Shown here: in pieces, positions 1 through 11,829 of the stretch | Layout: each line of letters starts with the position of its first letter | Numbering within the stretch: position 1 is the first letter of the stretch | Origin: a virus | Virus record (IMG/VR): IMGVR_UViG_3300037427_000386 | Location: 1-22,653 of that record | Direction: 5' to 3' (one strand) | Length of the DNA stretch: 22,653 bases | Notes under the pieces: model-generated | Seen by the model: the letters and a program-made list of their open reading frames with translations, nothing else | Told to the model about the DNA's origin: nothing | Database searches by the model: none | Program-made: the position numbers and the translations under genes

Positions 1-286
1 GTGTATGTCCTTCTTGGTTGAACTTTTTAAGTTGTGCTAAAAAGTGTGGGTGGTCTTTTGTAGAATGCGTAAAATTTACATCCGGGTGTATGTGTTGTAA
101 GTATTCTTTCTTATGATTGTGATGTAAAGGATCTTTTTTCTTGTTTTGTGAATGACTAACCACAACGGCATGATTTGCTCCAATCTCTTTAGCATGAGAA
201 TGAACCTTATCAATAACCTTAGAGTGTCCAGCAGTTGGAGGATTCATCCTACCAAATGAGAATACTATGTGTTTATCTTCTGCCAT
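1..286 (-). CDS. Histidine-rich HxGH-type nucleotidyltransferase, partial at the left edge
   Basis: The reading frame opens with ATG at 286 and is still open at base 1, giving the first 95 residues. Residues 9-21 read VFSFGRMNPPTAG followed by H, the T/HxGH nucleotide-binding signature of the cytidylyltransferase/NMN-adenylyltransferase superfamily, in the FGRMNPPTxGH form I recall from many marine T4-like phages. A VVVSHSQNKKKDPL stretch follows, also familiar from these phage proteins. The substrate cannot be told from the sequence. About 15 of the 95 residues are histidine, very high and shared with the next upstream gene. It begins 6 bases after the stop of the Cys-rich peptide gene, with only a weak GGAT-like ribosome site, so translational coupling is likely. 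The C-terminal part lies outside the window. Confidence 0.85.
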   Translation of the reverse strand, partial: MAEDKHIVFSFGRMNPPTAGHSKVIDKVHSHAKEIGANHAVVVSHSQNKKKDPLHHNHKKEYLQHIHPDVNFTHSTKDHPHFLAQLKKFNQEGHT

Positions 287-292
287 AATTAA

Positions 293-346
293 TTATCCGC
301 AACAAGTGCAAGAACAACATTCACAACATTTACATTTACTATTCAT
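293..346 (-). CDS. Seventeen-residue cysteine-rich peptide
   Basis: A very short frame reads MNSKCKCCECCSCTCCG and then TAA: 8 of 17 residues are cysteine, in C-x-C-C, C-C and C-x-C arrangements. A strong ribosome site, AGGAG at 354-358, lies 7 bases before the ATG and touches the TAA stop of the upstream gene (357-359). The next gene begins 6 bases after its stop. The spacing, strong ribosome site and non-random composition argue that it is translated. Clustered thiols suggest metal binding, as in metallothionein-like peptides, but this is inference only. It lies between two unusually histidine-rich proteins. The sequence could instead be a leader controlling the downstream gene. Confidence 0.6.
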   Translation of the reverse strand: MNSKCKCCECCSCTCCG

Positions 347-356
347 GTTCGTCTCC

Positions 357-1514
357 TTAGTTATTCTTATTAAAGTTAAGAGCACTAAACTCTTTCCTAT
401 CTACAAATTTTGAAGGCCTGCCACCCCTAATGGCAACAAATCCTTCGGGTTTAACTTCTTGACCATCTACCTCATGACCGAATTCTGAGCGTTGTGACAT
501 CGTCTTTGTTAGTATGTCCTTTGCTGCTTGAATATGTTTGTGCATATTCATTGGTCCTTCGAAGTGGTCCTTATTCTTATTTATATGACCTATTGTGTTA
601 TCGTGTGTAGTTTGATGTCTCGCTTTTGCTACATCTGTTTTAACTTTATCTACTTTCTTCATCATGTTTGCACTATGATGTGCTACAAATCCTTCGTGCG
701 AATGTTGTTCGCCTGTTCTTACTGTGTGATTAATATAAGTCTTTAGCGCCGCATGATGTTTTAAAACTGTATCGTGATGTTCATCAGGTGTATTTTTAAA
801 ATGTGATACTGCCTGTTCTAAATGATGTTCAACTTGTTTTCTATCTTCTTGTGTATAATGGTGTTGACTTGTGTCGTGATTTGTGCTCATCATATGAACA
901 TCTGGGTGACTATCAAAATGAGACATATCAGCACCATGTACTGCTTTCATATCTTTAATTGATTTACCTTCATATTGTGTATGAACTGCAAGTCCTAATT
1001 TTGCCTTCTGGGCTGCTTTACCATGTTCTGAATCGTGTGGTACATGATAAGTTATTGTGTTAGGTGTAAACTCCACTCTATTACCATTCTTTTTAACATC
1101 ATCTGGTGTGTGCATAATATCTGCTTGGTAAACACCTTGTGGTTTTATTTTGTGTGCATGGTCTAATGCCGCTTTTAACTTTGTTACAAGTCCTGGTGCG
1201 TGACCATGATTCTTTTCTATATCCTCATGCGTATGGTTAATTTTAGGATCTTTGTTAAATGCTGATTTAGATGCTACAAAAAATTTTTTATTCTCAGGGT
1301 GTTCCCCAAATACAACAGCGGGACTGCCATCATATTTAATTGTAGTCTGTGTATCTGTTTTAATGCCTTGCATCTTGTGATGAACGTCTCTGACTGTGTG
1401 AAACGCATGACCAAAACCTTCTTTACCAGCATGCAAGACATGGTCTTCCACGTGTTCTAAGTGTTTTAGTTTATCTTCTTCTGTGGCTTCTGTTAAAAAG
1501 TCTTTAAATCGCAT
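357..1514 (-). CDS. Histidine-rich protein with covalent nucleotidyltransferase (ligase-like) motifs
   Basis: This 385-residue protein carries KYDGS at 60-64, matching motif I (KxDG, the lysine that takes AMP) of ATP-dependent DNA/RNA ligases. EGFV occurs twice, at 274-277 and 357-360. The second copy is followed by SKFVDRKEF, which resembles ligase motifs IV and V. Related proteins in marine T4-like phages are, as I recall, annotated only as a domain of unknown function (DUF6267). About 46 residues (12 percent) are histidine, many in HH pairs, mainly between motif I and the C-terminal motifs. A sigma70-like promoter and a TATAAATA late promoter both lie just upstream. The Cys-rich peptide and the His-rich nucleotidyltransferase follow directly. 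The ligase-type fold is a motif-based inference; substrate and activity are unknown. Confidence 0.72.
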   Translation of the reverse strand: MRFKDFLTEATEEDKLKHLEHVEDHVLHAGKEGFGHAFHTVRDVHHKMQGIKTDTQTTIKYDGSPAVVFGEHPENKKFFVASKSAFNKDPKINHTHEDIEKNHGHAPGLVTKLKAALDHAHKIKPQGVYQADIMHTPDDVKKNGNRVEFTPNTITYHVPHDSEHGKAAQKAKLGLAVHTQYEGKSIKDMKAVHGADMSHFDSHPDVHMMSTNHDTSQHHYTQEDRKQVEHHLEQAVSHFKNTPDEHHDTVLKHHAALKTYINHTVRTGEQHSHEGFVAHHSANMMKKVDKVKTDVAKARHQTTHDNTIGHINKNKDHFEGPMNMHKHIQAAKDILTKTMSQRSEFGHEVDGQEVKPEGFVAIRGGRPSKFVDRKEFSALNFNKNN

Positions 1515-1546: not shown

Positions 1547-1575
1547 ATGATAACACCATATGGACCAAAAGTCAA
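1547..1575 (-). promoter_or_regulatory. Sigma70-like (early) promoter for the ligase-like gene
   Basis: Minus strand: TTGACT at 1575-1570, a 17-base spacer, and TATCAT at 1552-1547. It is preceded by GC, giving the CTTGAC form. The first spacer bases, TTTGGT, are shared with the promoter at 5676-5704. The predicted start near 1540 leaves a leader of about 25 bases before the ATG at 1514. Confidence 0.8.
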
Positions 1576-1588
1576 GCATTATTTACAG

Positions 1589-1596
1589 TATTTATA
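1589..1596 (-). promoter_or_regulatory. T4-type late promoter box TATAAATA
   Basis: An exact TATAAATA on the minus strand, overlapping the stop codon of the glycosyltransferase gene (1592-1594). It lies about 75 bases before the start at 1514 and directly upstream of the sigma70-like promoter, so the ligase-like gene may be expressed both early and late. T4 late promoters need only this -10 box (sigma gp55 with gp33 and gp45). Confidence 0.55.
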
Positions 1597-2642: not shown

Positions 2643-2814
2643 TTTGATATAGTCCTAATTCAAATCTATCTCTAATAGTAGAAATATCAATATTATGTTC
2701 TTGTGCTATTTTATTAGCAGTGTCTTTCCAATATGCTTTGAATTCGCCGTGTAAAGCTCTTTTCTCAGCAACCATACAATTTACTATTCTCTTGACAGGA
2801 TTAGTTTTTGCCAT
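2614..2814 (-). CDS. Unknown small basic protein
   Basis: A 66-residue protein beginning MAKTNPVKRIVN. ATG 2814 is preferred over the in-frame GTG at 2820 because GGAG lies 7 bases before it (CGGAGAGTGAAAATG). The middle (HGEFKAYWKDTANKIAQEHNI) is predicted helical, followed by DISTIRDRFELG, which could form a small helix-turn-helix-like pair, though this is weak. The start lies inside the end of the TagD-like cytidylyltransferase gene and the 3' end overlaps the next gene. No function can be assigned. Confidence 0.7.
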   Translation of the reverse strand: MAKTNPVKRIVNCMVAEKRALHGEFKAYWKDTANKIAQEHNIDISTIRDRFELGLYQNETKSRSYH

Positions 2815-3280
2815 TTTCACTCTCCGTTTTTATAGGTTTCAATTCAATAGGTTGATTCTCGGTTCTTTTCCTCAAATCAGTTGTACTAAAAGAATGGTCT
2901 CTTTTGTTGTATACAATTTCAATCTTTCTCTTATAACAAATTCGTTTACCAGTGAACTCTTTATTTTTATATTCATCACCAAGTACCCTTACATCAATTG
3001 GTAATGTAAGTAATAAATCTTCTAAATCTTTTTCCGTATTATATATTACGACTTCATCTACAAATTTTACGGCGCATAATTGTATCTGTCTTTCAACAAT
3101 ACTCTGTACAGGGGCGTTTTTATTTTTCCTATCCAATGTTGGGTCACTTTGTAACCCGCATATTAAATAATCACAATGCCTTTTTGCCTCTTCCAACATT
3201 ACAATATGTCCTGCGTGTAGGAAGTCAAATGTACTACAGGTAAATCCTATTTTACCTACATTATTATAATCAAGTTTCAA
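2801..3280 (-). CDS. TagD/RfaE-type cytidylyltransferase
   Basis: About 159 residues. FTCSTFDFLHAGHIVML at 13-29 carries the HxGH motif (HAGH 22-25), and FSTTDLRKR near the C-terminus matches the ISTT-type motif, as in glycerol-3-phosphate cytidylyltransferase (TagD) and the nucleotidyltransferase half of RfaE/HldE. It should transfer CMP or AMP to a phosphorylated sugar, polyol or similar. No ATG precedes the HAGH motif. I place the start at TTG 3280 because AGGAG at 3289-3293 lies 8 bases before it; an upstream in-frame TTG at 3304 has no ribosome site. It overlaps the upstream gene by 11 bases. With the glycosyltransferase downstream it suggests activation and transfer of a sugar-like group. 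Confidence 0.87.
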   Translation of the reverse strand: MKLDYNNVGKIGFTCSTFDFLHAGHIVMLEEAKRHCDYLICGLQSDPTLDRKNKNAPVQSIVERQIQLCAVKFVDEVVIYNTEKDLEDLLLTLPIDVRVLGDEYKNKEFTGKRICYKRKIEIVYNKRDHSFSTTDLRKRTENQPIELKPIKTESENGKN

Positions 3281-3815
3281 GTTGTTCTCTCCTAAATTCT
3301 TCAATTTGTTCAGTTACAAAGTCCTGAAAGTCCCTTGGGTCTCTCCCTTGGTCATGTTGTTCTTGTGTAAACCAACCACCTGATTCTTGTTGTTGGTCAA
3401 ATTGTCCTTCTGCAAATGTTATAGCACCTGCAAAATTATAATATTCGTCCTCATATACTAAGGATAATTTTACATCTTCATCAAAGTCGTATAAGTGGTC
3501 TGCTAGTTCCTCAAAAAACTTAATAGGCGGAGTCCACTTTGCCTTAATGATATGTTCATATATGTAGTTATATTCGCTACATGCTATGAACGTTACAGGA
3601 CCTTCTAATAATGCTGATGTGGACCCTATGTGTTCCATCATAAATTCATTATCTGCTATCTCAGCATTTGTTTTGTAGATATCCAGATATTGTAATCCGT
3701 AGTCATTAGAATAAGGATCAAGTTTTGTCAGTAATCTAAAAACCCTCTTCCATTCTTCCTCTGCTTGAGGACTTCCGTAGTTTAGTTGCAGTGTGCAATA
3801 TACATTATTAGCCAA
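3270..3815 (-). CDS. Ferredoxin-like-fold protein resembling the YubB/DUF1281 group, TTG start
   Basis: 181 residues, beginning MANNVYCTLQLNYG and followed by a helix (EEEWKRVFRLL), then MMEHIGSTSALLEG and a helix-strand repeat. The pattern M-x-N-x-x-x-x-x-L-x-(hydrophobic) recalls the ferredoxin-like domain of YubB/DUF1281 and Api92 proteins; this is from memory and moderately uncertain. The C-terminus is acidic and Gln/Glu-rich. The start codon is TTG at 3813-3815, with AGGAG about 7 bases upstream inside the end of the previous gene; no ATG or GTG fits the same site. It overlaps its neighbours by 8 and 11 bases. Function unknown. Confidence 0.75.
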   Translation of the reverse strand: MANNVYCTLQLNYGSPQAEEEWKRVFRLLTKLDPYSNDYGLQYLDIYKTNAEIADNEFMMEHIGSTSALLEGPVTFIACSEYNYIYEHIIKAKWTPPIKFFEELADHLYDFDEDVKLSLVYEDEYYNFAGAITFAEGQFDQQQESGGWFTQEQHDQGRDPRDFQDFVTEQIEEFRREQLET

Positions 3816-10227: not shown

Positions 10228-10996
10228 AATCACTCCTTCTTTCTTTGTTGGCCATTACAGCCGTTTCCATAATATTGTTTGTATGATAACATAAAGTTGA
10301 AGTGTGTGTCAAGTCCTTTGGTAAACAAGTTCCACCAAAACCTCTTTTATTATCATGTCCTGGTACGTCCCAATGCGTACCCCCTAAGTTTGGATCTTCC
10401 TTTAGATGTTCTACAAAGACATCAAAGTCAGCACCGTTATTTTTACATATATCATAAAAATCATTTGCCAGTGCAACTTTCATTGCCAGTGCAGCATTTC
10501 TTCCCATCTTAATCATTGATGCTGTAACAGGATTTGTAATTTTTATGTTCCTATTTAAAGACCTTAATGCGTATACTAAACCTCTAGGATCTGTATTGTA
10601 ACTTCCTATTATAATATCTATACTATCGTTGTCCACATCTGCCTTCCAATGGTTTTCTCGTAAAAACTCTGGCATAATAATAGGACAAGGATAAAATTGT
10701 TCCACAATAAAAAGGGTTTGGTCAGGGCCGAGTGTGCTTCTAATGACAGGTTGGACGTGTTCCGGTAGAGTTTTTAGAATGGTGTGTACTATCGACACGT
10801 CTAACTTACCGTCATTATGTATACCTGTTTTTTGATTTGTTGGTACACAAATAAAAGCATACTCAACACCTGACCAATTTTTAATTTCATGACCCAAAGC
10901 AGGGTCTTGAATTAAAACTTCAAATGTAGGAGTTTTACTTAACAATCTATGCGTTGCTTTACCTACAAAACCGTAACCAATTATTGCTACTTTCAC
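10220..10996 (-). CDS. Short UDP-glucose/GDP-mannose dehydrogenase-like protein
   Basis: 258 residues. A Rossmann motif GYGFVG at 7-12 binds NAD. IMPEFLRE and the active-site loop GFGGTCLPKDL, with catalytic cysteine at 224, match UDP-glucose 6-dehydrogenase-type enzymes that oxidise a nucleotide-sugar to an acid. Family members are normally near 400 residues or more; here the C-terminal nucleotide-sugar-binding domain is absent and the frame ends about 35 residues after the cysteine. The product may be a reduced but working phage version, act on a different substrate, or be a remnant. GTG 10996 overlaps the TGA of the upstream gene (10993-10996). The uvsX promoter lies in its last codons. 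Confidence 0.85.
   Translation of the reverse strand: MKVAIIGYGFVGKATHRLLSKTPTFEVLIQDPALGHEIKNWSGVEYAFICVPTNQKTGIHNDGKLDVSIVHTILKTLPEHVQPVIRSTLGPDQTLFIVEQFYPCPIIMPEFLRENHWKADVDNDSIDIIIGSYNTDPRGLVYALRSLNRNIKITNPVTASMIKMGRNAALAMKVALANDFYDICKNNGADFDVFVEHLKEDPNLGGTHWDVPGHDNKRGFGGTCLPKDLTHTSTLCYHTNNIMETAVMANKERRSDYE
10283..10312 (-). promoter_or_regulatory. Sigma70-like promoter for uvsX, inside the preceding gene
   Basis: TTGACA at 10312-10307, an 18-base spacer and TATCAT at 10288-10283 on the minus strand, preceded by AC to give CTTGACA. It ends about 55 bases before uvsX ATG 10227. The -35 is a perfect consensus but the spacer does not share the TTTWGGT bases of the other promoters. Confidence 0.7.
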
Positions 10997-11355
10997 CTGT
11001 TAAGCCACCCCTGTTTTCTAATTTTAGTTGCTGAGATATTTTCTATATCAGCATCTAAATGTTCTTGTTCAATTTTATAACCTACGTCTCTTCCATAAGT
11101 TATATGCGTAATGTTAGGTACTACCATGATTTCGTATTGTTCTCCATATTCATACCCTTCATTTTCTAGTTCAACCTTAATTAGTTCTGTCCTTTGAACA
11201 GCACTGTAAGGATTATCTTCATTTATTTCCATGTCCCTTAGAAGTATTATTACTTGACCAGTCTTGGAAATTGCTCGCTTAAAAAGTTCTGTATGGCCTG
11301 CATGCCAGGGTTGGAATCTTCCAAGCATTTGCGTAGTTGGTTTATGTTTATCCAT
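10993..11355 (-). CDS. HxGH nucleotidyltransferase domain protein
   Basis: 120 residues. QMLGRFQPWHAGHTELFKRA at 9-28 has the HAGH motif (18-21), and ENISATKIRKQ near 106-116 matches the ISATxIR motif of NMN-adenylyl/cytidylyltransferases. YGRDVGYKIE lies between. From memory this GRFQPWHxGH domain often occurs fused behind an adenylylsulfate-kinase-like domain in marine phages and Alphaproteobacteria. Here its ATG (11355) lies 106 bases inside the kinase gene in the -1 frame, with no clear ribosome site. The two may thus be a split bifunctional enzyme or be joined by frameshifting. The 3' end overlaps the dehydrogenase-like gene by GTGA. Substrate unknown. Confidence 0.85.
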   Translation of the reverse strand: MDKHKPTTQMLGRFQPWHAGHTELFKRAISKTGQVIILLRDMEINEDNPYSAVQRTELIKVELENEGYEYGEQYEIMVVPNITHITYGRDVGYKIEQEHLDADIENISATKIRKQGWLNR

Positions 11356-11690
11356 TTATCTACTCGTATGTCATATTCCTCTAACGGCTCAAAGATTTTA
11401 TTTGTGTCTTCAAACCTTCCTTCTTTTATTGTATCCATCCATATGACGTAATCTGGGTGTACAATACTGCGGTACTTTTTTAAAGGACAAACAAAGTCGA
11501 AGATTCCAAATGGATAATCATTTGCAAAGCGCCATGCTTGTCTTTCTCTTCCTTCTTCTGTAAAGTCCCAATCATTAAAATGTTCTCGAATAGTATCTGC
11601 GTTAAAATGTGGTACGCAAAAGTAATATGCCAGTTCTCTAGCTAGTGTAGTTTTACCACTACCCGGAAGTCCACATATCAATAGTTTCAT
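11250..11690 (-). CDS. Adenylylsulfate-kinase-like P-loop kinase
   Basis: 146 residues from ATG 11690 (GGAA 8 bases upstream). Walker A GLPGSGKT occupies 7-14. FNADTIREHFNDWDFTEEGR, then FDFVCPLKKYR, then IWMDTIKEGRFEDTNKIFEP follow, the order of motifs in APS kinase (CysC), where the last holds the GRFEDTN lid segment. In cells APS kinase phosphorylates adenylylsulfate to PAPS; the phage version may act on another small nucleotide-linked substrate. The last 35 residues overlap the start of the nucleotidyltransferase in another frame. This C-terminal tail (LEDSNPGMQAIQNFLSEQ) looks unlike the family, suggesting that the kinase domain ends near residue 110. Confidence 0.85.
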   Translation of the reverse strand: MKLLICGLPGSGKTTLARELAYYFCVPHFNADTIREHFNDWDFTEEGRERQAWRFANDYPFGIFDFVCPLKKYRSIVHPDYVIWMDTIKEGRFEDTNKIFEPLEEYDIRVDKWININQLRKCLEDSNPGMQAIQNFLSEQFPRLVK

Positions 11691-11829
11691 GTATTCGTTT
11701 CCATTGTTCTTCAATCTCTTTTTCTTGATCCTTGATTCGTTTCTCTTGAAACTTAACCTTATGCGCCTCTAATTCTGGATTCAAGTGTCGCGATTTGTTC
11801 TTCCTTCTTCTTTGTCCAGTTCTCTTCAT
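11659..11829 (-). CDS. Possible small Lys/Glu-rich coiled-coil protein
   Basis: A 56-residue frame from ATG 11829 (MKRTGQRRRKNKSRH), with a helical segment (ELEAHKVKFQEKRIKDQEKE then EIEEQWKRIHETI) that could form a coiled coil. It overlaps the previous small gene by 71 bases in another frame and the kinase by 32 bases. The ribosome site (GGGA, about 12 bases upstream) is weak. It bridges the gap that would otherwise exist between the flanking genes, which is in its favour, but the long overlap with a well-supported gene keeps confidence low. Confidence 0.4.
   Translation of the reverse strand: MKRTGQRRRKNKSRHLNPELEAHKVKFQEKRIKDQEKEIEEQWKRIHETIDMWTSG

Follow-up and report, generated by a model that had tools for sequence, protein, structure and literature searches.

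Three consecutive genes at one end of a 22,653-nt stretch of DNA from a marine T4-like phage (IMG/VR record IMGVR_UViG_3300037427_000386, positions 1 to 22,653; hereafter the window) raise the question of what a histidine-rich protein, a minute cysteine-rich peptide and a histidine-rich nucleotidyltransferase (NT) do side by side in a phage. One reading in the original prediction, made from the letters alone, was a metal-linked nucleotidyl-transfer system with the peptide as metal carrier. The histidine counts given there were borne out (46 of 385 residues, 11.9%, in the first protein; 15 of 95, 15.8%, in the partial NT), and the motifs KYDG (residues 60 to 63), EGFV and TAGH are present as described; EGFV occurs twice in the first protein, the second copy being residues 357 to 360. 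The composition supposed to be common to all three genes is found in the two proteins, both His-rich, but not in the peptide, which is rich in Cys and not in His. The features of the locus are compiled in Table 1. The window stops within the NT gene and contains no head genes, and both were taken from relatives; contig G006 (G6) is near-identical, with 100% identity across the 385-aa protein. The reading favoured here, with a probability of about 0.72, is that this protein, a member of family DUF6267, and the NT are a nucleotidyl-transfer module that is loaded into the phage head via a T4-like tag and injected with the DNA. The tag, the linkage of the two genes, their conservation and the NT fold can be seen in the sequences and their comparison; the packaging of DUF6267, the chemistry, its purpose and the participation of any metal are what we infer.

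Table 1. Features at the DUF6267-NT locus of the window (all on the minus strand).
Feature	Position	Strand	Remark
DUF6267 protein gene	357..1514	-	385 aa, 46 His, 0 Cys, ligase-like motifs
Predicted capsid targeting sequence MRFKDFLTE of DUF6267	1488..1514	-	Predicted cut Glu9/Ala10
Motif I, K60-Y-D-G63, of DUF6267	1326..1337	-	Candidate nucleotidylated lysine
EGFV (Glu357-Val360) of DUF6267	435..446	-	Candidate motif IV
Lys369 of DUF6267	408..410	-	Candidate motif V lysine
Micropeptide gene MNSKCKCCECCSCTCCG, 17 aa, 8 Cys	293..346	-	ORF with Shine-Dalgarno
Shine-Dalgarno AAGGAG of the micropeptide	353..358	-	Six bases 5' of ATG; overlaps DUF6267 stop
Nucleotidyltransferase (NT), first 95 aa	2..286	-	NMNAT/cytidylyltransferase-like; contig end cuts gene
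GRMNPPTAGH, (T/H)xGH active-site signature of NT	224..253	-	Alignment A2
T4-type late promoter box TATAAATA	1589..1596	-	Upstream of DUF6267
Sigma70-like promoter TTGACT-17-TATCAT, early-type	1547..1575	-	Number not above chance

Both members of the predicted pair of tandem promoters were found, but sigma70-like sites occur in the region at chance number (18 found, 19.6 expected from shuffles). In relatives, the late box precedes DUF6267 (35 of 57) more often than other ORFs (59 of 525). In approximately 25 relatives (among L004-L013, L020-L028 and L039-L067), the distance from the late box TATAAATACT(g/a)(a/t)t to the DUF6267 ATG downstream is exactly 13 nt, so that the transcript would start at or beside the AUG as a leaderless mRNA.

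The 385-aa protein was assigned to DUF6267 (Pfam PF19782, E 2.6e-97) and to phrog_455 (E 1.3e-90). DUF6267 is present in at least 465 phage records, the majority of them from cyanophages, and no paper naming it was found in a literature search. Lys60, the residue on which the predicted chemistry depends, is invariant in 37 of 37 members of the His-rich group and in 7 of 7 distant homologues, as are D62, G63, K83, D132, E357, G358 and K369. Their arrangement along the protein is that of motifs I, IV and V in ligases. Like RNA and DNA ligases (T4 Rnl2, TbREL1, T4 DNA ligase), DUF6267 shows KxDG, EG(F/Y)V farther along and a lysine towards the end, in ligase order; a large helical insert (residues 222 to 340) ahead of the EGFV block sets it apart from them, and no fold or profile match reached significance. 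A ligase-like fold is upheld in part: in searches with the AlphaFold (AF2) model of DUF6267 (pLDDT 88.8, pTM 0.86), RNA and DNA ligases lead the list (1xdn, 2hvr, 6vt8, 3w5o), but none of the PDB matches is significant (best 1xdn, E 0.4, probability 0.16). In the BFVD viral library, the first named match outside the family is an RNA ligase (E 6.5e-3), and one DUF6267 member matched PF09511 (E 0.015). An hhalign comparison of the DUF6267 profile with T4 ligases yielded 0.1% probability, no better than the gp24 control. Assignment of DUF6267 as a ligase by profile was dropped, since the profile comparisons gave no support, and PDB profile matches to amyloid-like protein 1 were judged to be compositional or helical noise. 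By its motif order and the ligase-headed fold list, DUF6267 is probably, but not certainly, a covalent nucleotidyltransferase, the similarity to the ligase fold being only suggestive. The cyanophage proteins (Pfam DUF6267, T4-GC 71) belong to the same family and keep K60, D62, G63, E357 and K369; those examined differ from the window protein in containing approximately 1 to 4% His and 1 to 7 Cys and in lacking the tag.

That the second protein is a nucleotidyltransferase is clear from the structure search. The partial NT matches PHROG 3041 (E 1.6e-22), and the full-length protein, read in L002 (281 aa), matches PF01467 (CTP_transf_like, E 4.5e-6). Its fold search gave 35 matches at E <= 0.001, with a NaMN adenylyltransferase on top (8aih, E 1.7e-6) and NaMN adenylyltransferase, FAD synthetase and PPAT as the leading types. 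Residues G12, R13, N15, P16, P17, T18, G20 and H21 are invariant in alignment A2, and the signatures GRMNPPTAGH and ISGTKMR of the L002 protein are near-invariant there. The NT neighbouring DUF6267 matches the second half of phrog_455 (764 columns). Furthermore, the S-PM2 protein A0A0M6VVW4 (591 aa, annotated as cytidyltransferase-like), to which the DUF6267 model was matched over its length (E 1.8e-30), is a fusion of DUF6267 and NT. Since phrog_455 spans both proteins and S-PM2 carries them fused, the two genes belong together. The proposed linkage of all three genes held for DUF6267 and NT, adjacent in most relatives, but the complete trio was found in one clade only.

Other genes with related domains are located in the window. 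A further CTP_transf_like protein is encoded at 2801-3304 (minus strand; PF01467, E 1.5e-13), so that the window holds three such proteins. At 10993-11714 (minus strand), two overlapping ORFs match the halves of phrog_10255 (kinase; 3-114 and 127-227 of 230). The second of them is nucleotidyltransferase-like, and the pair is possibly a split NadR-like kinase-adenylyltransferase. In L153, L209 and others, the NT is followed by a small membrane protein and an overlapping lipoprotein-like ORF in a spanin-like arrangement.

The original prediction overlooked a packaging tag on DUF6267 and NT. DUF6267 opens with a short tag of the form F-x-x-F-L-x-E (MRFKDFLTE/A), which lies in a part of the model that is disordered (residues 1-16, MRFKDFLTEATEED; pLDDT <50). 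The T4 internal proteins IPII and IPIII start with MKTYQEFIAE/A, with spacing equal to that of the DUF6267 tag. The ten-residue capsid targeting sequence of T4 is enough to send foreign proteins into the head, and mutagenesis showed positions 4 and 7 to matter for targeting and positions 8 and 10 for processing by gp21 (PMC9026906). In 68 of 78 DUF6267 proteins of the His-rich group, a count not fully independent because the tag-bearing relatives share descent, position 4 is F or L, position 7 F, Y or H, position 8 L or I and position 10 E. The other positions vary, giving 37 distinct tag sequences among these homologues. None of 80 members of the P-HM2-type cyanophage DUF6267 carries the tag. 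On the 170-kb contig G3, five tag-like N-termini were found among 237 ORFs, four of them in one block consisting of two NTs, DUF6267 and one DUF6321 protein. The head proteins gp20, gp21, gp22 and gp23 are encoded in all four long relatives checked (G1, G3, G6 and G7; tblastn). The place taken by gp67/gp68 in T4, between gp20 and gp21, is occupied by an ORF of 99-100 aa (L229:7781-8077; equivalents in G1 and G7) with a tag-like start (MKTFKQFREG, MKTLREFRER or MKTFKDFRNG) and 6-7% His. DUF6321 (PF19846) is either fused behind the NT tag (L002:5229-6071) or stands alone behind an N-terminal tag (L241:13186-14178), a position that suggests another packaged domain.

In the NTs the tag is movable. 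Those of the window clade have no N-terminal tag, and the motif sits after the NT domain instead, as QSFGEFLKED in L002, at the edge of a disordered linker in the model, and as LSFKAFLNEQ in L020; in L012 (LDFRTFLTEQC) it is the extreme C-terminus. Among 58 distinct NTs, 36 have the C-terminal tag only, 35 of these at 41-45 residues after SGTKMR, and 12 the N-terminal tag only. Tags at both ends were found in none of the 58, and the same search within the NT domain gave no match; the exclusivity of the two positions is significant (Fisher p 7e-7). The remaining 10 carry neither tag, and most of them start with an aliphatic variant, MKSFLE-(I/V/L)-(V/I/L/Y)-x-E or a near form. Mutual exclusion together with a fixed C-terminal place is not expected for a chance motif. 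In T4, gp21 trims Alt at its N-terminus as well as its C-terminus (PMC5694885), the latter cut being a precedent for a C-terminal propeptide; targeting by a C-terminal tag is not known from T4. Both proteins bear a T4-like tag and so probably enter the host together with the phage DNA. The same motif might instead serve as an intracellular docking site joining DUF6267, NT and partners. Its presence on both proteins and at either end of the NT, as well as the fusion in S-PM2, would suit such a role; the fit to the targeting and processing residues mapped in T4, its presence on all virion-detected NTs examined (see below) and the DUF6267 neighbours without motif in cyanophages make docking unlikely.

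According to three proteome reports, a cytidylyltransferase/NMNAT protein was detected in purified virions of S-SCSM1 (PMC9602691), S-SZBM1 (PMC9146016) and S-CREM2 (PMC10665884). These NTs, as well as that of S-CBWM1, which is cited there, are homologous to the NT of the window, and the three examined are all tagged (MKSFLQFLKEA, MRFRQFIIEA and MKNFSSFLTEA, respectively). Unlike in the window clade, the cyanophage tag is N-terminal, and those examined contain 0.7-6.4% His. The DUF6267 adjoining the NT in S-SZBM1 (397 aa) starts with MAKNTHLEHLED and is without tag, and the S-SZBM1 virion table, the entries of which were assigned to genes via length and order, lists no protein of this length. 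In the available text of these reports, no targeting signal was named for the NTs; in the literature searched, a capsid targeting sequence was tied to cyanophages nowhere except in a T4 review mentioning both. Within a 48-kb region of S-SCSM1, the tag is present in 1 of 14 virion proteins and 0 of 45 others, too few for a statement on enrichment. If the two proteins were ordinary replication or repair enzymes made late, their presence in virions would reflect contamination. Their genes adjoin gp41, mazG and uvsX in cyanophages, and contamination was allowed for by the authors of the S-SCSM1 and S-CREM2 proteomes (PMC9602691, PMC10665884). This explanation is nevertheless improbable, considering a tag that is conserved and exclusive to one end of the NT, and the repeated detection of the NT in independent preparations, but not of the S-SZBM1 DUF6267.

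The histidine content bears on the metal-linked system of the original prediction. Among ORFs of at least 80 aa in G006, G3 and G7, DUF6267 and NT are the most and second-most His-rich, and they rank second and third in G1; the median in G006 is 1.7% His. The 78 DUF6267 relatives have a median of 10.7% His, and 77 of them lack Cys; in 80 cyanophage-type proteins, His stands at 1.5% and the median number of Cys is 4. The tagged DUF6267 proteins of Methylophilales phage Melnitz and Stenotrophomonas phage DLP_6 contain 1.2 and 3.4% His, respectively, and no Cys. Lack of Cys therefore tracks the tag in the lineages seen, high His is found in one lineage only, and the link between His and packaging is loose. 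The idea that high His follows from the tag was ruled out, since tagged proteins of Melnitz, DLP_6 and S-SCSM1 are His-poor. As the His-poor homologues of cyanophages, Melnitz and DLP_6 keep the motifs, a high His content is not needed for the chemistry. Metal-linked catalysis was dropped as the main reading because His is not conserved alongside the catalytic residues. In its full form, with metal bound by the His-rich proteins and delivered by the Cys peptide, the metal-linked system could draw on the extreme His and Cys contents, on an NfuA-type Fe-S protein in the same slot in L008, L103, L153, L203 and L209, and on a ferritin/Dps-like gene (PF00210, 3.8e-20; L241:11554-12012) directly upstream of DUF6267 in G3. 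Against this, homologues with 1-3% His retain the catalytic columns, many relatives whose proteins are equally rich in His do without the peptide, and other phages have the peptide but neither protein in the surrounding stretch; we consider it unlikely that the three genes work in this way.

At the 42 positions where the window DUF6267 has His and the family varies, homologues show a hydrophobic residue in 45% of cases; for polar and Lys positions, the figures are 12% and 10%, respectively (p 3e-10). His rose from 1.7 to 10.2% in DUF6267, with Leu, Ile, Phe, Trp and Cys all reduced. No such replacement was seen in the NT (0.29 at His columns, 0.30 overall), which confines the effect to DUF6267. 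One reading would be a DUF6267 core destabilized so that the protein can pass the tail tube. An extended version, in which a tag at either end loads the enzyme pair, a His-rebuilt DUF6267 almost free of Cys and Trp unfolds to pass the tail tube and refolds in the host, and the His-rich cargo and the micropeptide may also carry metal into the cell, is rather doubtful.

The 17-residue peptide with eight cysteines is a real gene, as had been claimed, with its own ribosome-binding site. All eight Cys columns are invariant across 13 distinct sequences; seven of the eight Cys codons show synonymous TGT/TGC changes, and the residues between change freely. The Shine-Dalgarno sequence and the retention of Cys despite synonymous change argue for a real gene, and the codon pattern indicates purifying selection on the peptide. 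With half of its codons for Cys and its position just upstream of the NT, it might be regarded as a leader peptide that regulates the gene behind it and not as a product with its own function. The synonymous drift with Cys kept, and downstream genes that are unrelated in other phages, make a leader very unlikely. The peptide is found in the window clade, several members of which have an adjoining NfuA-type Fe-S protein. Such proteins are encoded between DUF6267 and NT at L008:5230-5832 and L234:16149-16781 (TIGR03341, 4.3e-64, in L008; PF01521 and PF01106 in both). Many relatives lack the peptide, and their slot holds other small genes, for example a small basic peptide in L009 and L011. An identical or similar 8-Cys micropeptide was also observed in unrelated phages (L095, L206, L207, L208, L212 and L213; L155 and L200). 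In a second phage type, it is part of an operon encoding small basic proteins, ahead of putative terminase and portal genes, and a variant precedes a terminase-like gene. Because it recurs in unrelated phages and its slot is variable, the micropeptide is best regarded as accessory. In cellular genomes, all 28 pattern matches were judged to be of low complexity or out of frame and none a real peptide, so that no bacterial copy was found. From its composition, the peptide is likely to bind metal. It shares CxCC and CCxCC spacing and eight Cys with metallothionein-like short peptides and differs from them in its length of just 16-17 aa and in being found only in phages here.

In the head-loading reading, the sequence points to late transcription from TATAAATA, followed by synthesis of DUF6267, the peptide and NT. 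The tags, N-terminal MRFKDFLTE/A on DUF6267 and C-terminal QSFGEFLKE/D on the NT of the near-identical contig, would drive loading into the core, as suggested by T4 and the virion data, followed by cleavage behind the tag Glu by a prohead protease of the gp21 type. Both proteins would then enter the host with the DNA. Judged by its motifs, DUF6267 would carry out nucleotidyl transfer through adenylylated Lys60, and the NT, by its fold, would have a dinucleotide such as NAD as its product or substrate. The likeliest purpose, still speculative, would be to repair or protect nucleic acid at once, or to provide a cofactor (NAD), ahead of phage gene expression. The abundance of His and the lack of Cys would represent a lineage-specific adaptation of the packaged DUF6267 outside catalysis, and the micropeptide an accessory gene in the DUF6267-NT slot, probably metal-binding. 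Some injected proteins of T4-like phages counter host defence; a search for defence systems with PADLOC gave no match.

The predicted system resembles the internal head proteins of T4. IPI, IPII, IPIII and Alt carry a ten-residue N-terminal tag of the pattern aromatic-xx-aromatic-aliphatic-x-Glu, as on DUF6267; a gp21-type protease and a late promoter are common to both systems, and Alt is likewise an injected enzyme that uses a nucleotide. It differs in its cargo, DUF6267 (for which packaging is predicted) and an NMNAT-like enzyme, and in the tag at the C-terminal side of the window-clade NT. Packaging would give DUF6267, with its at least 465 phage records, a testable role and would explain why NMNAT-like enzymes are repeatedly found in cyanophage virion proteomes. 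The head-loading code of T4 would be extended to marine phages, with an added C-terminal version, and a simple motif would be available for predicting injected phage proteins.
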